64,000 nt of DNA. It comes from Clostridiaceae bacterium (GTDB lineage Bacteria > Bacillota > Clostridia > Tissierellales > Sporanaerobacteraceae). Positions 46,255-57,446 of this stretch are shown here, in pieces (positions within the stretch are counted from its first letter, which is position 1; each line of letters opens with the position of its first letter). The DNA lies in contig JAHXQP010000030.1 of the NCBI GenBank assembly GCA_019391515.1, forward strand, positions 1 through 64,000. Direction: 5' to 3'. Under the pieces are notes generated by a model, which was given only the letters and a program-made list of their open reading frames with translations, ran no database searches and was not told where the DNA came from. The position numbers and the translations under genes are program-made.

Positions 46255-46998
46255 CTATTCTCCTCTCTTACTATATTTTCTAATTAATTTTTCTACCTCT
46301 TCTAAATTTTCTATTCCGCTTTCTTCAGTTCTTCCAATAATTATTGGAATAATACCTAGCTCTTTACAAGCATTTATTCGCTCCAATGTTCCTCCACTTT
46401 TTCCACTATCTTTCATAACTACATACTCTGCACCATATTCACTAAACATATCTTTGTTAAATTTAGTAGAAAATGGTCCTAATATAGCCACAATATCCTT
46501 CATGTGTACATTATATTTCTTACATTCTTCTATGCTTTCTAATGCTGGTAATATCCTATATATAAATCTATTTTGTCCTCTTATTTTTTCAAAGTCTCCT
46601 ATATTTTTAGAGCCCGTAGTAAAAAATACAGTTCCTGATATGTTTTTCAAATAAGATATACATTCATCATAATTTTTTAGGTATACTGCCCAAGAAGGTA
46701 TATCTGTTTTATTCCTAATATATCTAATATATTTTATGTTTTTCATATTGGAAATCTTTTTTGCATTTTTACTTACTATTTTTGCATATGGATGAGACAA
46801 ATCTACTATAAGTTCTATGTTTCTATCTTCAACAAATTCAAGCATTTCATCTAAATTCATTCTTCCTATTATTAATTTAGAAGAATCTATAAACTGTCTT
46901 TCACTTTCTGTTGCACCTGTTATTACAAAATCTTCTATATCTTCTATTTTACTTACAAGACGTCTAGCTTCACTAGTTCCTCCTATTATCCATATCAA
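46255..46998 (-). CDS. cbiJ: Precorrin-6A/cobalt-precorrin-6A reductase
   Basis: Reduces the corrin ring at C18-C19 using a nicotinamide cofactor, a middle step of cobalamin synthesis. The 247 residues start with the nucleotide-binding IWIIGGTSEARRLV and include DLSHPYAKIVSKNAK, SGTVFFTTGSKN and a C-terminal VVMKDSGKSGGT motif typical of CobK/CbiJ. The start is TTG at 46996-46998, overlapping the cbiH stop by four bases (TTGA), with SD GGGGG upstream. It is the thirteenth gene of the operon. Confidence 0.93.
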   Translation of the reverse strand: MIWIIGGTSEARRLVSKIEDIEDFVITGATESERQFIDSSKLIIGRMNLDEMLEFVEDRNIELIVDLSHPYAKIVSKNAKKISNMKNIKYIRYIRNKTDIPSWAVYLKNYDECISYLKNISGTVFFTTGSKNIGDFEKIRGQNRFIYRILPALESIEECKKYNVHMKDIVAILGPFSTKFNKDMFSEYGAEYVVMKDSGKSGGTLERINACKELGIIPIIIGRTEESGIENLEEVEKLIRKYSKRGE

Positions 46999-47714
46999 AG
47001 ATTATACCCCCTAGGAGTTATCATATGGCCATTTTCTACGTAAGTCTTGCTATTTCCTACTATTAACACAGATAGCATGTCTATTCTTTCATAATCTATA
47101 TCATCTAAAGTCGTTATAAATTGTTCTTGTCCACTTCTTCCAGAATTTTTAACAATCCCAACAGGTGTTGAAGGTGATTTGTGTTTAAGCATTATTTCTA
47201 CTGCTTTTTCTATATGTTTTTTTCTTCCTTTACTTCTAGGATTATATATAGTTATAACAAAATCTGCTTCCGATGCCTTCTCAATCCTTTTTTCAATTAA
47301 TTCCCACGGTGTTAAAAGATCACTTAAACTAATAGAACAAAAATCATGCATAATAGGGGAACCTAGTTCTCCTGCTGCGGAAAAAGCTGCTGTAACTCCT
47401 GGTACTATTTCTACATCTATATCGGTTGCCATCTCTAAAATTGGACCTGCCATACCATAAAGACCAGCATCTCCTGTACTTACAATAGCAGTATCTTTTC
47501 CGTTCTTTACAGATTCAATAGCTGCTTTACATCTTTCCAATTCTCCTTTCATTCCTGTAGATATTATTTCCTTCCCTTCTACAAGTTCTTCTAAATATTC
47601 AATGTAAGGAGTATATCCTACTATTACCTGAGAATTTTTTATAGCATTTACAGCCCTAAATGTCATATCCTCTCTCCCACCTGGGCCTATTCCTACTACA
47701 TATAATTTAGCCAT
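46995..47714 (-). CDS. cbiH: Cobalt-precorrin-3 C17-methyltransferase (CobJ/CbiH)
   Basis: SAM-dependent methylation at C17 coupled to ring contraction. The 239 residues show the tetrapyrrole methylase fold with AKLYVVGIGPGGREDMTFRA at the start, STGDAGLYGMAGPILEMA and the C-terminal GNSKTYVENGHMITPRGY. In the anaerobic (cobalt-early) pathway the contraction product is the delta-lactone opened by CbiG, the next gene upstream. Overlaps cbiG by 8 bp and follows an AAAGGAGG SD. Confidence 0.95.
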   Translation of the reverse strand: MAKLYVVGIGPGGREDMTFRAVNAIKNSQVIVGYTPYIEYLEELVEGKEIISTGMKGELERCKAAIESVKNGKDTAIVSTGDAGLYGMAGPILEMATDIDVEIVPGVTAAFSAAGELGSPIMHDFCSISLSDLLTPWELIEKRIEKASEADFVITIYNPRSKGRKKHIEKAVEIMLKHKSPSTPVGIVKNSGRSGQEQFITTLDDIDYERIDMLSVLIVGNSKTYVENGHMITPRGYNL

Positions 47715-48732
47715 AATTTACCTCCTTTGAAATTGCTATTGTAATCCCATTACATTTAGTCTTTTTAACAACTATTTCACCTCCTGAAAGATAGGCACAA
47801 GGCTCACTTACAGAAGATACTCCTATAGTCTTTTTAACAAAAGAACTTTTTTCAAACATTTTTTCCACTTTCTCTATCTCTTTTAGAGTAAAAATATTCA
47901 TAGGACAGTCAAAATACTTACTAGCTTCTATAATCCCGACTTCATCTTTTTTAATTTCTACTGTTCCTATAGATTTTATAGAATTCTTAGAAAGATTGTT
48001 TCTATCTAAAGTTTCTAATATTGCTTTAATTATTCTTTCTCCTTCTACTCCTTTTCTACAACCTATACCAATATTTAAATTTTTAGGTCTTAAAATAGTA
48101 TAAGGTATGTCCAGATCTATATTTTGAATAGAGGTTATCAGTATAAGTCCATCTATTCTATCTTTTAAATCTTCTATTCCATCTAAACTATCTATAGCTA
48201 GTATATTGTCGTAATAAATAATATCTTTCATGTCAGAATAGAAACCAATCTTTTTACCATTTACCATCATAGCTGTAATATCCTTTATAGATTCCATATC
48301 TTCCATTAAATATCCCATATTCATAGCAAATACATCTATAGCTTCTATACCTCTACCATCTGAAGCTGTAGTTATAATTGGCTTTACTTTCAATATATCA
48401 GCTATATATTTACATAAGAAATTTCCCCCACCTATATGCCCTGATAATAAGCTTATTGAAAACCTCCCTAAATCATCTACCACGACTATTGCTGGATCTA
48501 CAGTTTTATCAATTATATATGGCGCCATCATCCTTACTGCTATTCCGGTAGCAGATATGAAAACTATGCCATCATGTTCTTTTACAATATCTTTGAAAAT
48601 ACTCTTAATTCCACCCTTAATTTCAGAATTTATATAATGATGAATTTCAATACAGTTATTCAATTTAAAACTAGATAACTTCTCACCAATTTTTCTACCA
48701 TTGTCTGTAAAGGATAAACAAGCTACTTTCAT
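47707..48732 (-). CDS. cbiG: Cobalt-precorrin-5A hydrolase CbiG
   Basis: Opens the delta-lactone of cobalt-precorrin-5A with loss of acetaldehyde, a step found only in the anaerobic pathway. The 341 residues include an N-terminal domain with FISATGIAVRMMAPYI and LLSGHIGGGNFLCKYIA, and the C-terminal CbiG/CobE-like domain with IGIGCRKGVEG and PCAYLSGGEIVVKKTKCNG. Length is normal and there is no fusion. It starts ATGA-coupled to the cbiF stop. Its presence argues for the cobalt-early route. Confidence 0.94.
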   Translation of the reverse strand: MKVACLSFTDNGRKIGEKLSSFKLNNCIEIHHYINSEIKGGIKSIFKDIVKEHDGIVFISATGIAVRMMAPYIIDKTVDPAIVVVDDLGRFSISLLSGHIGGGNFLCKYIADILKVKPIITTASDGRGIEAIDVFAMNMGYLMEDMESIKDITAMMVNGKKIGFYSDMKDIIYYDNILAIDSLDGIEDLKDRIDGLILITSIQNIDLDIPYTILRPKNLNIGIGCRKGVEGERIIKAILETLDRNNLSKNSIKSIGTVEIKKDEVGIIEASKYFDCPMNIFTLKEIEKVEKMFEKSSFVKKTIGVSSVSEPCAYLSGGEIVVKKTKCNGITIAISKEVNYG

Positions 48733-49484
48733 TTAGAAGCATTCCTATATTCATGAGTAAATTCCGGATCATAGAGTTTAGATCTTTCATAATCTCCTGA
48801 TATAAAATCTCCTACAAGTATTTGAGCCGTTTTGGTAATTCCTTCTTTTTTAACTTTCTCCCCGATATCTTTCAAAATACCTATTACAATTTTTTCATCT
48901 TTCCAAGTAGCTTTATATATTACTGCAATTGGTACATCTTCTCTTCCATATCCTCTTTTTAATTTATCCACCACATTATCTATTTGTTGGACTGAAAGGA
49001 ATATAGCCATAGAAGCACCATAGGAAGCCAATTTTTCCAGATCTTCATTTTCCGGTACACTAGTTCTGCCTTCTATTCTAGTAAGTATAACTGTTTGGCT
49101 GACTTCTGGAAGAGTGAATTCTTTTTTTATAGCTGAACAAGCAGCAGTAAAGGAACTAACACCTGGTATTACTTCATAGGAAATCTTCTTCTCATCTAAA
49201 ATATCCATCTGTTCCCTTATGGCACCATAGATAGTAGGGTCGCCTGTATGAAGTCTAACTACCTTCAATCTTTTATCTAATCCATCCTCCATCACATCTA
49301 TTACCTCTTCTAAAGTCATAGATGCGCTGTTGTAAAATTGACATTCTTCTTTACAGAAATTTAGATGTTCTTTCGATACCAAGCTTCCTGCATATATAAC
49401 AATATCTGCTTCTTCTAAAAGTTTTCTTCCTTTAATAGTTATTAAATCTACATCTCCAGGACCTGCTCCTACAAAACTAATCAT
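48729..49484 (-). CDS. cbiF: Cobalt-precorrin-4 C11-methyltransferase (CobM/CbiF)
   Basis: Methylates C11 of cobalt-precorrin-4 with SAM. The 251-residue protein starts MISFVGAGPGDVDLITIKG and has VRLHTGDPTIYGAIREQMD and VIPGVSSFTAACSAIKKE, the signature of this methylase. An in-frame TTG at 49500-49502 lies before the SD GGAAGGAG, so ATG at 49482-49484 is the start; it overlaps the cbiL stop by 8 bp. It is in the run of overlapping genes cbiL-cbiF-cbiG-cbiH. Confidence 0.95.
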   Translation of the reverse strand: MISFVGAGPGDVDLITIKGRKLLEEADIVIYAGSLVSKEHLNFCKEECQFYNSASMTLEEVIDVMEDGLDKRLKVVRLHTGDPTIYGAIREQMDILDEKKISYEVIPGVSSFTAACSAIKKEFTLPEVSQTVILTRIEGRTSVPENEDLEKLASYGASMAIFLSVQQIDNVVDKLKRGYGREDVPIAVIYKATWKDEKIVIGILKDIGEKVKKEGITKTAQILVGDFISGDYERSKLYDPEFTHEYRNASK

Positions 49485-50142
49485 CTTTCTCTCTCCTTCC
49501 AAATATAAATGAAATATAATCTTTATCTTCCAATATATCTTCTTTATCCATCAATATCTGCTCTTCTTTAAGACTACATCTTTTAACATAAGTATATGAA
49601 AAATTCTTTTTTTCAAAAGTATCTATAATAGTTTTTTTATTTTTTGTAGTTTTTAAAATACATACTGAATCAACCTTTTCTAATATTTCTTCATCTTTCA
49701 TTTCATCAAGCAATAAAAACTTATCTCCTTTTACAGTAATAGGAGTTTTTGATTTTGAAGCTCCTGCTAAAAAAGAAGTTATACCTGGAACTACCTCTAC
49801 TTCTACTCCCATTTCTTCTACATTTTCCATTAAATATATGAAAGTACTATATACCATAGGGTCTCCAATAGTTAGAAAAGCTCCTGATTTTCCTTCTGGT
49901 ATTTCTTTTTTTATTATTTCTGCTGCATTCTCATAATCTTCTTTCTTAACCTTTCTCATAGGAAAATCTATTAGAACTACTCTTTTTCCCTCAATAAAAT
50001 CTTTAGCTGTATCTAAAGCCATATTCTTTCCATTATTATTAGGAGCAAATATTATTTCTGCTTCCTCCATAATCCTTACTGCTTTCAATGTTAGATATTC
50101 TTTATCTCCTGGGCCTGTTCCTATACCAAATAGTTTCTTCAT
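49477..50142 (-). CDS. cbiL: Cobalt-factor II/precorrin-2 C20-methyltransferase (CobI/CbiL)
   Basis: Adds a methyl group at C20 of cobalt-factor II using SAM. The 221 residues carry KLFGIGTGPGDKEYLTLKAV at the N-terminus, AEIIFAPN, TIGDPMVYSTFIYLMENVEE and VPGITSFLAGASKSKTPI. The assignment over other tetrapyrrole methylases rests on these motifs and on every other ring methylase being accounted for in the operon. It overlaps cbiT by 4 bp. Confidence 0.93.
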   Translation of the reverse strand: MKKLFGIGTGPGDKEYLTLKAVRIMEEAEIIFAPNNNGKNMALDTAKDFIEGKRVVLIDFPMRKVKKEDYENAAEIIKKEIPEGKSGAFLTIGDPMVYSTFIYLMENVEEMGVEVEVVPGITSFLAGASKSKTPITVKGDKFLLLDEMKDEEILEKVDSVCILKTTKNKKTIIDTFEKKNFSYTYVKRCSLKEEQILMDKEDILEDKDYISFIFGRREKDD

Positions 50143-50687
50143 CTCTTCACTCCTTTTACTAAGAATATTGGATTATTCCCTTTCATAAGACCTACACTAC
50201 TTATTTTTGCTGTTTGAATAAGCCTTGTCTCTATGTCTTTATAATTATATTTCTCTAAGAGTTCTATAAATTGATTTAAATTCTTTAAAGTAACAAAATT
50301 AGCACAAACTATGCCATCTTTTTCTAAACTCTTTTCTAAAAAATCAAATATGTCTTCTAATCTTCCGCCACTTCCACCAATAAAGCATTTGTTATACTCC
50401 ATCTGTGGTATACTCTCAGGAGCCTGTCCTTCAATTATATTTACATCTACCTTAAACTTTTCACTATTCTTTTTTATTAATTCTATACCCTCTTCTTCTT
50501 TCTCTACTGCCCAAACTTCTGCACCTTGAAAAGCTCCTTCTATAGACACAGATCCTGTACCAGCTCCTATATCTAATAGTACATCTCCTTCTTCTATAGA
50601 AAGAAGTACAATAGTTAAAGCTCTTATATCAAATTTAGTCATCGGGATATTTCCCCTTATAAACTCTTCATCTTTAATCCATTTCAT
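50139..50687 (-). CDS. cbiT: Cobalt-precorrin-6B C15-methyltransferase, decarboxylating (CbiT)
   Basis: Methylates C15 and removes the C12 acetate carboxyl group. It is a class I SAM enzyme, unlike the other methylases here. The 182 residues show MTKFDIRALTIVLL (the conserved N-terminal MTK motif), the SAM loop LDIGAGTGSVSIEGA and CFIGGSGGRLEDIF. It is separate from CbiE, whereas aerobic CobL is a CbiE-CbiT fusion. Its start lies inside the cbiE 3' end (14-bp overlap). Confidence 0.94.
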   Translation of the reverse strand: MKWIKDEEFIRGNIPMTKFDIRALTIVLLSIEEGDVLLDIGAGTGSVSIEGAFQGAEVWAVEKEEEGIELIKKNSEKFKVDVNIIEGQAPESIPQMEYNKCFIGGSGGRLEDIFDFLEKSLEKDGIVCANFVTLKNLNQFIELLEKYNYKDIETRLIQTAKISSVGLMKGNNPIFLVKGVKR

Positions 50688-51270
50688 TCTCTATCACCAC
50701 CACTGCCAAAGGAGATATATATTCTATATTATCTCCAATATCAACCAATACAATTTTCTCATCATCGTAGGATAAATTAAATCCTGCATATATCTTCCCT
50801 TTAACACCTAGACTATTTAGAACTTTCGATATCTTTGATGGAGTATTATTTTTGTCTGTAAGTATTATTGTAAGAGGATTATTTTTTACATTTTCTAAAC
50901 CTTCATCTCTGCCGTGGAGGGATAAGAAGCTTGCATGTTGCCAACTTTTCTTAAGCTTTCCCATCATATACTGGAAAGAAGATATTCCTGGTAGTACATT
51001 GTCTACCCCTATACCTTTCCTCTTCAAATACTCTAATATACCATAGAAACAAGGGTCTCCAGAAGCCAATATTAGTACATTTTCTTCCCTATCTAAAATA
51101 TCTAATACCTCACTTACACTTTTGATTTCTATATAGTCTTTTCTTAGGTTCCCAAGTGAACGTGAGACTCTCCCAAAAGCTATTACAGTTTCAGTTTTTT
51201 CTATAGCTTCTTTTACTTCACCTGTAACTAGTTTTGGATTTCCTGGTCCTATTCCAGCTACCGTTATCAA
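50674..51270 (-). CDS. cbiE: Cobalt-precorrin-7 C5-methyltransferase (CbiE)
   Basis: Methylates C5 with SAM. The 198 residues start MITVAGIGPGNPKLVTGEV and carry ILASGDPCFYGILEYLKRK and VLPGISSFQYMMGKLKKSW, the CbiE version of the tetrapyrrole methylase fold. It overlaps cbiD by 4 bp and cbiT by 14 bp, which fits coordinated synthesis of the CbiE/CbiT pair. Confidence 0.94.
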   Translation of the reverse strand: MITVAGIGPGNPKLVTGEVKEAIEKTETVIAFGRVSRSLGNLRKDYIEIKSVSEVLDILDREENVLILASGDPCFYGILEYLKRKGIGVDNVLPGISSFQYMMGKLKKSWQHASFLSLHGRDEGLENVKNNPLTIILTDKNNTPSKISKVLNSLGVKGKIYAGFNLSYDDEKIVLVDIGDNIEYISPLAVVVIENEMD

Positions 51271-52340
51271 ATAAATACACCTCTTTCCATAGAGTATATA
51301 ATTACCTCTACATCATAATCCTCGTCTTTTAAATATTTTTTTATTCTTTCTTCACATCCTCTTTCCATATCATAAATTACTTCCTCATAACCTTCTTCTA
51401 GACAAATATTTAAAGATTCTTCTGCTGTTATTGCATTATTTATCTTTTGTATAACTTTCATATTTGCACCTCTTAGTGCCAAATAATATATGAAAGCCTC
51501 CATTCTTCCATCACAAACTTTGCTATGAGTATTGAATACTCCTATAGATAGTTTAGCAAATTTACCTATATGGCCTATTAAGGTCATAGATTTGAAGCCC
51601 TTATTATACATATAAAGAATGCTATCCCCTATATAATTTGAAATTTTAACTTTGCCGCTCTTAAGTTTAAGAGAATCTGCTATCTTTTCTCCATAATTTC
51701 CTGGCACTAAAATTATATTTTCTCTTCCTTCCCTTTCCATGGCTGCGTCAGCTTCAAGATATATGGTTTTTATAAGGGCCTCTTCTGACATAGGATATAC
51801 TATACCTTTTGTACCTATAATAGAAATGCCGTCTTCTACTCCTATATTTTTATTATAGGTCTTTTTGGCAATTTCTCTTCCCGTAGGTGCATATATGACT
51901 ACATCATATCCAGAGTCTGATACTTCCCTAACCTCTTTTTCTATCATTTTTCTTGGTACAGGATTTATAGCTGCCGAGCCTATTTCACCAAATAATCCTT
52001 TTCTTTTTATTCTCCCTATACCTTCTCCTCCATCTATAACAACTTTTCCATCTTTTCTTTTTCTAACTTTAGCACATATATCCATGCCATCAGTTGCATC
52101 TGGATCATCTCCTCCATCCTTTACAATGCAACAAGAGGCCCATCCACTTTCTATTTTTAAATTCTTTAATTCAAGTTTCAATCTTATGCCAGCTGGTGTA
52201 TCTATTTCCACAAAAGATGGTTTCTTTCCTTCAAGAAGTTGTACTGCTCCTTTAGCCGCTCCAGCAGCACAACTTCCTGTAGTATAACCACATCTTAATC
52301 TTTTCCCTTCTTTTATGACATACATCTCTCCATCATTCAT
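51267..52340 (-). CDS. cbiD: Cobalt-precorrin-5B C1-methyltransferase (CbiD)
   Basis: A C1-methyltransferase specific to the anaerobic pathway. The 357 residues show the CbiD hallmark LRCGYTTGSCAAGAAKGAVQ near the start, KDGGDDPDATDG and GIGRIKRKGL, and ILVPGNYGEKIA with LIGHIGKFAKLSIGVFNTHS later. It starts with ATGA overlap on the cbiC stop. Its presence with cbiG places this pathway firmly in the cobalt-early class. Confidence 0.95.
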   Translation of the reverse strand: MNDGEMYVIKEGKRLRCGYTTGSCAAGAAKGAVQLLEGKKPSFVEIDTPAGIRLKLELKNLKIESGWASCCIVKDGGDDPDATDGMDICAKVRKRKDGKVVIDGGEGIGRIKRKGLFGEIGSAAINPVPRKMIEKEVREVSDSGYDVVIYAPTGREIAKKTYNKNIGVEDGISIIGTKGIVYPMSEEALIKTIYLEADAAMEREGRENIILVPGNYGEKIADSLKLKSGKVKISNYIGDSILYMYNKGFKSMTLIGHIGKFAKLSIGVFNTHSKVCDGRMEAFIYYLALRGANMKVIQKINNAITAEESLNICLEEGYEEVIYDMERGCEERIKKYLKDEDYDVEVIIYSMERGVFI

Positions 52341-52957
52341 CTTCCCACCACCATGTATAAAAGAGCATTTACAATTGAAGCTGCTACATTGCTACCCCCT
52401 TTTGTTCCCACAGTAGATATGGAAGGTATGTTATATTTTCTCAGTTCTTCTCTCGATTCTTTAGCTCCTACAAATCCTACTGGAACCCCTATAACAAATT
52501 TAGGATCCACCTTACCAGCATCAACAAGTTCTAAAATCCTAAACAATGCAGTAGGAGCATTTCCTATAACAAACATATCTATTCCTTCAGATACTGCTAA
52601 ATCTATTGCGCAAGCAGATCTAGTTGTTCCTAATTCTTTTGAAAGTTTTTTAGCTCTTTCATCATCTATAAAGTATTTTAATTCACAACCTGTTTTAGAC
52701 AGTGCAGTTTTATTTATACCTGAATAAGCCATTTTAGTATCTGTATATATAGTTCCTCCACTTTTAATTGCAGATATAGCATTGTTTAAAAAATCTCCTT
52801 TAAACTCTACTATATTCCTATAATCAAAGTCTCCTGTAGTATGGATCATTCTTTTAACAACTATTTTCTCTTCAGGAGAAAAGTTGGTATCACCCATTAC
52901 TTCTTCTATAATATCCATACTCTTGTTTTCTATTTCCATAGGTTTTTTTATATACAT
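52337..52957 (-). CDS. cbiC: Cobalt-precorrin-8 methylmutase (CbiC)
   Basis: Moves a methyl group from C11 to C12 to give cobyrinic acid. The 206 residues include RMIHTTGDFDYRNIVEF (the catalytic His region), TIYTDTKMAYSGINK, IGNAPTALFRILEL and VGFVGAKESREEL, all typical of CbiC/CobH. It has normal length. It lies 11 bp after cbiA and its stop overlaps the cbiD start. Confidence 0.95.
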   Translation of the reverse strand: MYIKKPMEIENKSMDIIEEVMGDTNFSPEEKIVVKRMIHTTGDFDYRNIVEFKGDFLNNAISAIKSGGTIYTDTKMAYSGINKTALSKTGCELKYFIDDERAKKLSKELGTTRSACAIDLAVSEGIDMFVIGNAPTALFRILELVDAGKVDPKFVIGVPVGFVGAKESREELRKYNIPSISTVGTKGGSNVAASIVNALLYMVVGR

Positions 52958-52968
52958 TCTATTCTTAC

Positions 52969-54282
52969 CTACCTTTCCCTATTGTTTTCTACATTGTCCA
53001 ATAAATAGTTGAATGCCTTCATATTACTAAAAAAATGTATATGAGGATATCCTGCTAGAACATTTTTATATTCATATCCACAGCTCCAACTCTTCTTTCC
53101 CATAGGTTTTTTTATACGATATATTTCTTCACTATCTATATTTGTAATAGATTTATGAAATTCATTAGCATTTAAAATATCGCCTTTTTCACCTAATATA
53201 CAGTCTTTTAAAAGCTCTATATTTATATATCCAAATCTTTGAAGCCTATTGGTCATAGTACTACTACCTTTAAATATATTGCACATTTCACTGCCTTCAA
53301 TATCCCCTACAAGATACATAAAACCTCCACATTCCCCATAAACATACCCACCATCTTCTGCAAAAGTCTTTATAGATTTCAACATGCTCTTATTTTTTGA
53401 AAGCTCATCTTTAAACACTTCTGGATATCCTCCACCTAGATACAATAAATCACATGATGGCAGTTCCTTATCTTTAAGAGGAGAAAAGTACACTAAATTA
53501 CATGTATTTTCAAGAAGTTTCAAATTTTCTATATAGTAAAATGAAAATGCTTTGTCATAAGCTACACCTACTGTAATATCTCTTTTTCTTGGATAAATAA
53601 ATTTAGGAACTTCTACAACATTCATAAGTTTCATAATTTCATCTATATCTACACTTTCTTCTATATGAACAGAGGCATTTTCTATAATATCCTCAATATT
53701 TTCTAATTCTTCAGTTTGGATTAGACCTAAATGTCTACTTTCTATCTCCAGTTCACTATCCTTTTCCACAAAACCTAAAACTTTTATCCCCACGTATTTT
53801 TCTATCTGCTCTTTAAGCAATATATACATAGCTTTCGTTACTTTATTTAAAATAACCCCTTTAATTTTAGAACCTTCAAAATCTACCATTCCTTTTATCT
53901 TAGGAATTACAGAGAACATTTCTCCACCAGGAGTATAAACCAATACAGCATTTACATCTAATTTTTTTGATATGTCGAAAGATGAGTTTTCAAAAGTATT
54001 ATATACTCCATCAAAATATCCCATAGCCCCTTCTATGATTCCATATTCCCCATCGCCCATAGCAATAGCCGATTTTATTCCATCTACTCCCATTAGGTGA
54101 ATATCTAAATTTCCTGGTCTTTTCCCTGATGCCTTACCTAAAAAACTCGTATCTATATAATCTGGTCCTGTTTTATAGCCACATACATCAATTTTTCTTT
54201 TCTTCAATGCCCTAATAAGGCCCAAGGTTATTAAGGTTTTTCCACTACCACTAGAAGGGGCTGTTATCATTAACATTTTCAT
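52969..54282 (-). CDS. cbiA: Cobyrinate a,c-diamide synthase (CbiA)
   Basis: Amidates the a and c side chains of cobyrinate using ATP and glutamine. The 437-residue protein is complete. The P-loop ITAPSSGSGKT is near residues 6-16, the dethiobiotin-synthetase-like domain runs to about 200, and a C-terminal class I-like glutamine amidotransferase has DLLYLGGGYPEVF, the nucleophile YGECGGFMYL (Cys318) and PHIHFFSN (His about 416). It is the only amidotransferase domain with a glutaminase centre in this operon, which matters because CbiP lacks one. It sits 1 bp after cobD. Confidence 0.96.
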   Translation of the reverse strand: MKMLMITAPSSGSGKTLITLGLIRALKKRKIDVCGYKTGPDYIDTSFLGKASGKRPGNLDIHLMGVDGIKSAIAMGDGEYGIIEGAMGYFDGVYNTFENSSFDISKKLDVNAVLVYTPGGEMFSVIPKIKGMVDFEGSKIKGVILNKVTKAMYILLKEQIEKYVGIKVLGFVEKDSELEIESRHLGLIQTEELENIEDIIENASVHIEESVDIDEIMKLMNVVEVPKFIYPRKRDITVGVAYDKAFSFYYIENLKLLENTCNLVYFSPLKDKELPSCDLLYLGGGYPEVFKDELSKNKSMLKSIKTFAEDGGYVYGECGGFMYLVGDIEGSEMCNIFKGSSTMTNRLQRFGYINIELLKDCILGEKGDILNANEFHKSITNIDSEEIYRIKKPMGKKSWSCGYEYKNVLAGYPHIHFFSNMKAFNYLLDNVENNRER

Positions 54283-54283
54283 A

Positions 54284-55333
54284 TTATAACCTCTCCAATT
54301 CTTTAAAGGATTTTATAAGTCTTAAGTTTTTATCTCTATCCTTAATAGCAACTCTAATATAACTTTTACCTAAGCCATCAAAACTCGAACATTTTCTTAC
54401 AACTAACCCATCACTAAGAAACTTGTGAAAAGCAAATTCTTCATCCCAATTTAAGAGCTTTATAAGTATATAATTGGTATGGGTAGTATATACCTTTATT
54501 CCTTCTATTTTTGAAAGCTCTTCTAACAAGAATTTTCTTTCAGCTTCTATATATCTTTTACTTTTATCTATATAATCTTTACAATTAAATATATATCTTC
54601 CTGCACAATCAGCTAATGCATTTACACTCCAAGGTAATTCTATTTTCTTATACTCTTCTACCATATCTTTAGAAATACAAGCATATCCTAATCTTATTCC
54701 TGGCAATGAAAAAAATTTAGTTGCTGCCCTTATAATTCCTACTCCTTTAAAATCTTCATCACTAAAAATATCTATGCTATCATAATCCTCTGGACAAAAC
54801 TCAAAAAATGCCTCATCTAATAGTAAAAAACCACCTTTTTCCCTTACTATTTCATAAGTTTTCTTCAATTCTTCAATTTCAATTCTAAGCCCAGTAGGAT
54901 TATTAGGATTGCCTAAAACTAATAGATCTCCTTCCATCATGTTCTCTTCAAGATTGTCTAAATCTAAAGAAAAATCTTCTAAATAATTTAGTTTCAAAAC
55001 TTCCTTACCAAATACTCTCGCCCTATCTTCATATTCTGAAAAAGAAGGAATAAATACAATCACCCTTTTAAACAAGTGAATTATATTATTTATTATTTCA
55101 ACTGCTCCATTTCCTACAATTACATTTTCTATGTTACACTTTAAATACTCTGATATAGCTTTTCTAAGATATCTATATTGAATATCTGGATAACTTATAA
55201 GGGTATTAAAAGAATTTATAAGTTCTCTATTCAACCCTTCAGGAGGACCTAGGGGATTGATATTACTGCTAAAATCTATAAGTTCTCCTTGATAATAATC
55301 AGCATAACTAATTAAATCTCCACCATGTTTCAT
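54284..55333 (-). CDS. cobD: Threonine-phosphate decarboxylase / aminotransferase-like CobD
   Basis: A PLP enzyme that makes (R)-1-amino-2-propanol phosphate, the linker between the corrin ring and the nucleotide loop. The 349 residues start MKHGGDLISYADYY (CobD-like) and continue DFSSNINPLGPP, GNPNNPTGLRIE and LLLDEAFFEF. The PLP lysine is in AATKFFSLPGIRLGYA. It resembles HisC but the N-terminus and context, between cbiA and cbiB, mark it as CobD. SD GGTGGGAA precedes ATG. Confidence 0.93.
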   Translation of the reverse strand: MKHGGDLISYADYYQGELIDFSSNINPLGPPEGLNRELINSFNTLISYPDIQYRYLRKAISEYLKCNIENVIVGNGAVEIINNIIHLFKRVIVFIPSFSEYEDRARVFGKEVLKLNYLEDFSLDLDNLEENMMEGDLLVLGNPNNPTGLRIEIEELKKTYEIVREKGGFLLLDEAFFEFCPEDYDSIDIFSDEDFKGVGIIRAATKFFSLPGIRLGYACISKDMVEEYKKIELPWSVNALADCAGRYIFNCKDYIDKSKRYIEAERKFLLEELSKIEGIKVYTTHTNYILIKLLNWDEEFAFHKFLSDGLVVRKCSSFDGLGKSYIRVAIKDRDKNLRLIKSFKELERL

Positions 55334-55348
55334 CTTTTTCCCACCTTT

Positions 55349-56278
55349 TTATATAAAGCTAATGGTCATATATATCAATAGCAAAAGTAGTTCTCCTCTG
55401 TACATGATCTCAATAGTACTTTTTATATCTTCTTTTTCTATAATTTTATTTTTATCCCCAATAGTTGGCTTTTCTATTAATTTTCCAAAATAATAGCTAC
55501 TTCCCCCAAGCTGTATGTTTAAGAGTCCTGCTACAGCCCCTTCTGGATAAGCACTATTAGGACTTTTATGGTTTTTTCTATCCCTTAGCATTATTTTAAA
55601 TCCATTCACTATATCATATTTAAATATAGAAGAAACACACATGAGTATTCCTGACAATCTTGCAGGTATATAGTTAAATACATCATCTATTCTTGCTGGA
55701 AAACGGCCTAAGTCTATATATTTTTCATTCATATATCCTAACATAGAATCCATGGTATTTACCATCTTATACATTAGTCCTCCAGGAGCTCCTAAAATAA
55801 ATATATAAAATAGTGGTGCAACAACTCCATCAGAAGTATTTTCTGCTACAGTCTCTATATCTGCTTTTATAATCTCTTCTTTACTTAAACTTTTTGTGTC
55901 TCTTCCTACGATATAAGAAAGTTTTTTCCTAGCATCTTCTATACCGTTATCAAAGGCATGATAAACCTTCATAGCTTCTTTATGAAGACATTTTGCAGCA
56001 ATACATGTATATATTAAATAGGTATTTATAATATGGTATAAAAGCTTGTACTTTCTTATAAATTTTAATAGTACAAAAGGAAGAAAAAAAGCCATAACTA
56101 TGTTGATAAAAGCTATTAAAAAGCCAGCTGTTTTTAAACCTTTTTTACTTTTAAATATCTTTCTTACAAATCTATCTTCAACTGAAATTATATTTCCCAT
56201 GAATTTAACTGGATGTGGAAAACTATAAGGGTCCCCTATTAAAAAGTCTAAAACAACTGCTATTACAATGTCTAACAT
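55349..56278 (-). CDS. cbiB: Adenosylcobinamide-phosphate synthase CbiB
   Basis: An integral membrane protein that attaches the aminopropanol phosphate to adenosylcobyric acid. The 309 residues contain four or more hydrophobic segments and the family motifs FLIGDPYSFPHPVKFMG near the N-terminus, VAENTSDGVVAPLFY (conserved ENxSDGV) and RFPARIDDVFNYIPARLSG. It needs the product of CbiP and acts after adenosylation by PduO. It lies 15 bp after... cobD starts 15 bp past its stop, and its own start lies 22 bp past the cbiP stop. Confidence 0.95.
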   Translation of the reverse strand: MLDIVIAVVLDFLIGDPYSFPHPVKFMGNIISVEDRFVRKIFKSKKGLKTAGFLIAFINIVMAFFLPFVLLKFIRKYKLLYHIINTYLIYTCIAAKCLHKEAMKVYHAFDNGIEDARKKLSYIVGRDTKSLSKEEIIKADIETVAENTSDGVVAPLFYIFILGAPGGLMYKMVNTMDSMLGYMNEKYIDLGRFPARIDDVFNYIPARLSGILMCVSSIFKYDIVNGFKIMLRDRKNHKSPNSAYPEGAVAGLLNIQLGGSSYYFGKLIEKPTIGDKNKIIEKEDIKSTIEIMYRGELLLLLIYMTISFI

Positions 56279-56300: not shown

Positions 56301-57140
56301 TTATTTATTAAGCAATGAATAAACATAATCCATATCTATGTTTTCTCTAACTATATGGGCTAATTTTCGTATTTCTTCTGCTTTTTCACTATCATCTTGT
56401 TTCTTATTATTGCATTCTTTTTCATAATCTGAAAGACTATCCTCATCTTCTAATTCTAAATGCATATAAGGTATAGTTCCAACTACTGGAATATTCAATA
56501 GCTCTTCTATCATTTGAATTCCAGGCTCTAAAAGAGATTTATCTCCTCTAAATTTATTAATGACTAATCCTTTAACCCTTTTTCTCTCTTCCTCTTCCAA
56601 CAACATCACTGTTCCGTATAAAGAAGCAAAAACTCCGCCTCTATCTATATCAGCTACTAATAATACAGGTGCATCTGCCATTTCAGCCATTCCCATATTC
56701 ACAATATCGTTTTGCTTTAAATTTATTTCTGCTGGACTTCCTGCACCTTCTATAACCACTATGTCATATTGGCTTTCAGCTGCATCAAAAGTTTCTTTAA
56801 TCATAGATCTTAAACTATTTTTAAACTTAAAATATTCTACAGCGCCCATATTTTCATATAATTTACCTTTTATAAATACTTGACTTTTCCTATCGCTTGT
56901 AGGCTTTAGAAGGATAGGATTCATATTTGGACTTGGTTCAAGTTGAGCTGCAAAAGCTTGTAATACTTGGGCAGTACTTATCTCTAAACCCTCCGGAGTA
57001 ATATATGATTTAGAAGACATATTTTGCGATTTAAAAGGGAAAACACTATGTTCATCTTCCTTAAATATTCTACATAAAGCAGTACATAACATACTTTTAC
57101 CTGCTGAAGAAGTAGTTCCTTGTACCATAATTGTTGCCAT
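56301..57140 (-). CDS. cbiP: Cobyric acid synthase CbiP lacking the glutamine amidotransferase domain
   Basis: CbiP/CobQ amidates the b, d, e and g side chains of adenosylcobyrinate diamide and is normally about 500 residues. This one has 279. Residues 1-235 are an intact synthetase domain: [18 protein letters not shown] (P-loop), [52 protein letters not shown] and [12 protein letters not shown]. After [10 protein letters not shown] it passes directly to [20 protein letters not shown], which matches the extreme C-terminal tail of full-length CbiP. The glutaminase domain between them, with its Cys and His, is absent, in frame and with no remnant. ATG at 57138-57140 follows GGAGGTG. It is the first gene after the B12 riboswitch. 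An assembly or recent deletion error is possible but the junction is clean. Confidence 0.9.
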
Positions 57141-57187: not shown

Positions 57188-57261
57188 GTTTTATAAAAAA
57201 GTTCAATATTTCCCCAGTTTATGAACTAGACAAACAAGCACTTTCTTTCCCTCCGAAAGAA

Positions 57262-57425
57262 TGCTTTCAACTTAGGCAGGTTTCCTGACTTACGGTTCAA
57301 CCTCCTTCCTCCTTCCCAGCATAAGGCTAGTGGATTATGGAATTTGTCACCGTTTACAGTAGCGGGGGCTGTAGTGGGCTTTCACCACTTTCCCTTTTAA
57401 CCATTAAGGCACCTTAGTATCTATT
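57262..57425 (-). promoter_or_regulatory. Cobalamin (B12) riboswitch
   Basis: The minus-strand leader has the class I cobalamin aptamer hallmarks. These include GGGAAAGTGGTGAAAGCCC, CCCCCGCTACTGTAAACGG and, at the 3' side, GTAAGTCAGGAAACCTGCC (57270-57290). It precedes the 14-gene cobalamin operon and is followed by a terminator, so bound coenzyme B12 should stop transcription. Confidence 0.95.
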
Positions 57426-57446
57426 TTATTTTCCATTATCTATTAT

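Follow-up and report, generated by a model that had tools for sequence, protein, structure and literature searches.

A CbiP without its glutaminase domain, most likely an ammonia-dependent and repeatedly evolved cobyric acid synthase

The cbiP gene in the analysed stretch of DNA (64,000 nucleotides, hereafter the window) encodes a synthetase core joined to the C-terminal tail of the long enzyme, and the whole glutaminase domain between them is absent. Together with the related sequences collected here, this shows the short CbiP to be a real, widespread and repeatedly evolved variant of cobyric acid synthase, one that most likely depends on ammonia. We put at about three in four the probability that it is a functional single-domain enzyme that uses ammonia and whose glutaminase has been lost repeatedly. 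CbiP/CobQ is the adenosylcobyric acid synthase, which carries out four amidations (b, d, e and g) of the corrin side chains. One review describes CbiP as hydrolysing glutamine and as having an amidotransferase domain (PMC8123684), and another derives its amide groups from glutamine (PMC7242693).

The short cbiP gene and its cluster

The features of the gene and its surroundings are as follows.

56301..57140, minus strand: short cbiP (glutaminase-less single-domain cobyric acid synthase), ATG start, TAA stop, ORF of 279 aa
56442..57140, minus strand: synthetase core, residues 1-233, P-loop included (family scans, alignment, AlphaFold2 model)
56394..56441, minus strand: charged linker, residues 234-249, at the site of about 225 absent glutaminase residues (AlphaFold2 model and tail comparison)
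56304..56393, minus strand: retained C-terminal tail (residues 250-279), modelled as two confident helices; its homologue is the very end of long CbiP
56973..56975, minus strand: codon 56 (Thr), Arg in 127/127 distinct long CbiPs and non-Arg in 74/77 distinct short ones
57258..57431, minus strand: cobalamin riboswitch RF00174, upstream of cbiP (115.7 bits)
55349..56278, minus strand: cbiB, adenosylcobinamide-phosphate synthase (ORF and family scans)
54284..55333, minus strand: cobD-like aminotransferase (ORF; name presumed from the sequence)
52969..54282, minus strand: cbiA, full length, GATase_3 intact-looking, with Cys in GECGG and His in PHIHF
51267..52340, minus strand: cbiD (PF01888 match at 51540-52298)
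46255..52957, minus strand: rest of the cluster around cbiD, namely cbiC, cbiE, cbiT, cbiL, cbiF, cbiG, cbiH and cbiJ (ORFs)

The product matched the full-length family models over their first halves only (model positions 2-241 of 480 in NF001989 and 1-247 of 477 in TIGR00313). Its scores exceeded the curated cut-offs of both models (322.5 against 309.9 for TIGR00313), so automatic annotation would name it an ordinary CobQ; the CbiA/CobB model TIGR00379 gave 38.8 bits, below its cut-off of 261.4. The P-loop and the QNM, DIDRGG and NKFRG motifs of CobQ-type synthetases are all present, and the C-terminal GATase_3 domain with the catalytic Cys and His is absent. No GATase Pfam domain was found in the protein by a scan that did detect GATase_3 in the CbiA of the cluster, and as a control the GATase_3 model detected the CbiP glutaminase in 27 of 27 long-CbiP genomes. 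The earlier note on this DNA had described a complete synthetase core from which the glutaminase was gone, and the half-length matches and the domain scan agree with that description.

In 98% of 129 long proteins the best match to the final 30 residues fell inside the terminal 60, with a median score of 51 compared with 33 for the 95th percentile of shuffled tails, which confirms the earlier assignment of this end to the long-CbiP tail. The passage from core to tail had been read as a direct jump. The domain is indeed absent in frame, but a charged linker of roughly 15-25 residues lies between the two parts; the distance from DEDS to the tail motif is 25 residues in the window protein and 250 in the long Alkaliphilus protein L110. 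The start of cbiB, at 56278 and 22 bp past cbiP, was as previously described.

An assembly deletion was ruled out, because two congeners (97% and 85% identical) and many further genomes have the same junction. The earlier note had named two observations that would count against it, and both were looked for: related genomes carry the same deletion rather than an intact glutaminase, and the search of the window genome for a second full-length cbiP found none. This genome (2.84 Mb, 32 contigs, 99.5% complete) gave a single cbiP match and a single GATase_3, the latter in CbiA. The gene is the first after the cobalamin riboswitch and is followed on the same strand by cbiB, cobD, cbiA and the corrin-ring genes as far as cbiJ; the names cobD-like, cbiC, cbiE, cbiT, cbiL, cbiF, cbiG, cbiH and cbiJ are those we take to apply from the sequence.

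Distribution of short CbiPs and repeated loss

Some CbiP match was obtained in 122 of 249 genomes of the order (a few of them weak paralogues), in 128 of 391 genomes of the class and in at least 222 of 398 genomes of the phylum. The lengths fall mostly into two classes, of about 275-300 aa and about 480-570 aa. The 227 loci with a CbiP match yielded 204 distinct proteins, 77 short and 127 long, after exclusions and the removal of identical duplicates. Excluded before counting were two short fragments (L047, with an in-frame stop, and L208), two genes cut at contig ends (L121 and L126) and one of intermediate length (L221, 395 aa). Short forms occupy 95 loci in 78 genomes, counts that still take in the fragments L047 and L208, and are spread over 17 family codes, in 8 of which long forms also occur. 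The suggested search for other CbiPs of about 280 residues with the same junction was thus productive, with all 77 distinct short proteins coming from many families. The same recurrence of glutaminase loss across families removes the earlier picture of a one-off architecture in an otherwise invariant enzyme. The best 80 matches of a scan of genome contigs, a set outside which near relatives of the window may fall, comprised 78 long CbiPs, two cut ones and no short one.

Several genomes carry unusual complements or frames. One (G927) has two cbiP genes, one short and one long (L216 and L217), and another (G036) has two short ones from different clades (L013 and L104), for which contamination is possible. 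In G030 a decayed second cbiA and cbiP with stop codons lie at G030:C28:80820-83324, and the intact copies are on contig C7. Unusually long CbiP frames occur at L130 (732 aa) and L142 (849 aa), as possible fusions with a neighbouring gene, and open CbiP frames of 715-799 aa in G500, G921 and G964 are likewise possible fusions with an adjacent gene.

For the synthetase core we built a tree from 151 of the 204 rows (77/77 short and 74/127 long), excluding the trait columns. It needs 12 changes between short and long forms, of which well-supported (starred) branches force at least seven, and shuffled labels on the same tree need about 50; an earlier tree with fewer rows needed 7 changes, 4 of them forced by starred branches. 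Since the long CbiPs are scattered through the tree and the short ones are nested among them, repeated loss of the glutaminase is the natural reading of the origin of the short form, with the reservation that the counts of changes alone give no direction and that transfer may have contributed.

Signs of function and residues that change with the domain

Among 13 pairs of related short genes, dN/dS (NG86) was 0.066-0.145, indicating purifying selection. All 77 short proteins retain G14, K15, K37, N40, E131, G132, G134, E138, N140, G168 and N195, and the remaining motif residues are almost as constant (S16 and F197 in 76/77, D164 in 75/77, K196 in 73/77). By these signs the short CbiP looks functional. 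The AlphaFold2 model of the window protein has a mean pLDDT of 90.3, and that of a long CbiP is also confident (92.0). Residues 234-245 of the linker form the only segment of three or more residues with pLDDT below 50 in the window model, and the helices of the tail are confident; the tail thus probably belongs to the synthetase fold rather than to the glutaminase, which would explain why it has been retained. The nearest solved fold to the model is dethiobiotin synthetase BioD (PDB 1dae and 1dts; E 8.8e-11, TM 0.58/0.72). The sequence search matched no solved structure to the CbiP synthetase domain, and the single-domain form of 280 residues may therefore be a convenient structural target.

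Across the 127 long proteins, 62 positions show a conservation of 97% or more. Six of them fall to about 35% or less in the short proteins, namely Arg56 (3.9%) and Gln87, Asn44, Glu53, Ser45 and Lys79 (22-35%); Ala57 stands at 78% and the other 55 at 89.6% or above. Leu43 and Gly55, just below the 97% line, are retained in 2/77 and 12/77 short proteins, respectively. Arg56 itself is present in 127/127 long and 3/77 short proteins (L195, L196 and L209), being replaced in the others by T, I, V, N, A, S, G, K, Q or H. Counted on starred branches, it was lost with the domain in 6.9 of 7 independent pairs, and the reverse never occurred (sign test, median p 0.0156, uncorrected, for a position picked afterwards as the most different). 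In L104, an isolated short protein nested among long ones, Arg56 alone is changed among the eight positions. On the model of the window protein the changed residues lie on or beside consecutive strands and the start of a helix (45-47, 53-55, 56-64, 76-80 and 86-90). We infer that in long enzymes these residues, Arg56 among them, are turned towards the glutaminase or the path of the ammonia, where they would serve contact with the glutaminase or the hand-over of ammonia. As these few residues change almost whenever the glutaminase leaves, such a role in ammonia transfer is directly testable.

Arg56 does not serve as an absolute mark of glutamine users, since beyond the group sampled it is missing from 2 of 9 distant sequences, the long CobQs of Thermus and of one haloarchaeon. 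The residue may align near the metal site of BioD. One long CbiP (L084, genome G130) has Gly in place of the catalytic Cys, keeps the catalytic His and has Ser at 43 and 55; from its sequence it is a possible glutaminase-dead intermediate.

We consider it barely credible that short cbiP is decaying, or that its product is something other than cobyric acid (a relic, or an enzyme for another substrate). The changed positions (43-56, 79 and 87) are part of the synthetase core and might conceivably shift the choice of substrate, and decayed cbiP and cbiA fragments with stops do exist in one relative, G030. Such a course is, however, opposed by the low dN/dS, the conserved motifs, the riboswitch and the position in the operon, as well as by the recurrence on at least seven supported branches and by the fact that this is the sole cbiP match in the window genome.

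Source of the nitrogen and comparison with known systems

In the reading that we favour, the short CbiP would amidate adenosylcobyrinic acid a,c-diamide with free ammonia, at the expense of ATP. NH3 would probably reach the acyl-phosphate directly, and an ammonia-rich, amino-acid-fermenting life may make the glutaminase dispensable. The earlier note had set free ammonia beside a glutaminase acting in trans, either CbiA of the same operon or a separate gene. These were the right alternatives, but a universal donation by CbiA is contradicted by the survey of short-CbiP genomes. CbiA is present in 47 of 60 (the window genome included), so that donation in trans is possible there, and in the window a CbiA with the GECGG and PHIHF motifs is encoded in the same cluster. 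It was not found in the other 13, and hence borrowing from CbiA cannot be general. The set of 60 includes two imperfect short genes, that of G119 (in-frame stop) and that of G243 (split over two contigs); the latter genome, 88% complete, is one of the 13. Eight of the 13 gave no GATase_3 match at all, and in the other five the model picked up HisH, PdxT, a single GatD-like gene adjoining MurT and a fragment at the end of a contig. Moreover, one might expect docking of a CbiA glutaminase to keep some of positions 43-56, 79 and 87, which change in the short proteins. We therefore regard it as improbable that short CbiP acts as a synthetase subunit for which CbiA provides the glutaminase. A further 17 short-CbiP genomes included three (G268, G420 and G777) without any GATase_3 match.

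Less probable still is that some other glutaminase, dedicated or shared, feeds ammonia to the short CbiP in trans as in a split enzyme. A known two-subunit alternative of this kind is the lipid II isoglutaminyl synthase MurT-GatD, in which GatD belongs to the CobB/CobQ GATase family. The retained tail past the deleted domain could be a docking site for such a partner, and 'Candidatus Manganitrophus' has separate ORFs for synthetase and GATase with an overlap of a few bases, for which a frameshift could also be the explanation. A GATase_3 fragment at a contig end in G033 also counts on this side. The window genome, on the other hand, contains one GATase_3 (in CbiA) and one PF00117 glutamine amidotransferase (CTP synthase), and no stand-alone glutaminase of either kind, such as the earlier note had suggested might lie elsewhere, was found in it (class II and nitrilase-type enzymes lie outside this search). 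A CbiP-type GATase profile, a narrow one that missed other CbiAs, gave only four matches at the 95 short loci (stretches of 2.6-19 kb, 56/95 longer than 7 kb), each in an ORF of CbiA-like length (443-465 aa). The small GATases of the CbiA-less genomes are HisH (G020, G033, G045, G053 and G227) or PdxT (G020). Stand-alone GATase_3 genes of about 250-320 aa were considered as partners of CbiP and rejected: they adjoin MurT in six of the six short-CbiP genomes examined (G045, G947, G696, G813, G883 and G968) and are best explained as GatD for that reason, although the GatD-model matches that were scanned score below its curated threshold. Of the donors left for the short CbiP, free ammonia is the simplest.

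The fragment in G033 is 169 aa long, with MutS as the sole neighbour seen. The 'Ca. Manganitrophus' locus (L232, plasmid CP114554.1) keeps Arg56, and its synthetase and GATase ORFs may be a true split or a frameshift. That CTP synthase carries the only PF00117 domain found in the whole window genome suggests few glutamine-dependent biosynthetic routes there. Finally, glutamine-type NadE was found in 2/39 short-CbiP and 15/39 long-CbiP genomes (Fisher p 0.0006, raw; 80 genomes searched, two without a match), but the expected parallel switch of NadE to the ammonia type is not significant when phylogeny is taken into account, pairs going the same way in 2.7 of 5 and showing no difference in 2.3 (p 0.25).

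Seven of the 13 CbiA-less genomes are also without CbiD, and by gene content they look like salvagers. Salvagers of this type, with CbiP but without CbiA, are described for about 2% of gut genomes (PMC8123684). The other six have CbiD: G020, G033, G045 and G053 belong to one family, and G247 and G248 to another (loci L239-L244, L049, L051, L053, L057, L106 and L108). By BLAST with the genes of the window, cbiC, cbiD and cbiE occur in all six. The run is longer in G020, G053, G247 and G248 (cbiT, F, G, H and J too) and in G033 extends from cbiC to cbiG, an ORF resembling cbiH lying at the margin of the fetched sequence, so that five of the six have a long cbi run; within the stretch fetched, G045 shows cbiC, cbiD and cbiE only. 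Cobalt chelatases were confirmed by Pfam in G248 and G053. A second CbiA-family model found in the six only CbiP itself and small or fragmentary weak matches. With G248 in a single contig and G045 in two, gaps in the sequence are unlikely to explain why CbiA is absent there. These genomes raise the question of how the a,c-diamide is synthesized: either the short CbiP does all six amidations or another enzyme makes the a,c-diamide. That in these six the short CbiP would carry out all six (a, c, b, d, e and g) from free ammonia, with neither CbiA nor any glutaminase needed, is a tentative proposal that we consider unlikely, though not far-fetched. A further genome, G947 (290 contigs), has a short CbiP and CbiD and no CbiA-sized frame among its GATase_3 matches.

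A search of the open-access literature, with supplementary files outside its scope, found no report of a CbiP without glutaminase. If the ammonia-dependent reading is true, many bacteria have been given the wrong nitrogen donor in annotation and in models of the B12 pathway, and the repeated losses would amount to a natural replicated experiment on the coupling of glutaminase and synthetase.

Compared with the CbiP/CobQ family (TIGR00313 / NF001989), the short CbiP shares the synthetase core, the motifs, the C-terminal tail and the operon and riboswitch context, and differs in being without the whole GATase_3 and in the replacement of Arg56 and its near-invariant neighbours. It resembles MurT-GatD as a synthetase without a glutaminase of its own; the partner gene of MurT is adjacent, whereas none was found beside short CbiP. 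BioD is likewise a stand-alone synthetase of the same P-loop class, but it acts on another substrate and has 18% identity to the short CbiP. Of the known systems, NAD synthetase (NadE type N; PMC3376133) comes nearest. This ATP-dependent amidase, too, occurs both with a glutaminase and in a form that has none, and shows lineage-specific loss; for its single-domain form, ammonia was shown to be the physiological donor. The enzyme and the substrate are different. According to that paper, glutamine and ammonia users among NAD synthetases differ in structural elements and no conserved residue separates them, whereas in CbiP Arg56 tells the two forms apart almost without exception in the set sampled here. 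The single-domain form of NAD synthetase is regarded as ancestral, whereas the short CbiPs are nested among fused forms.
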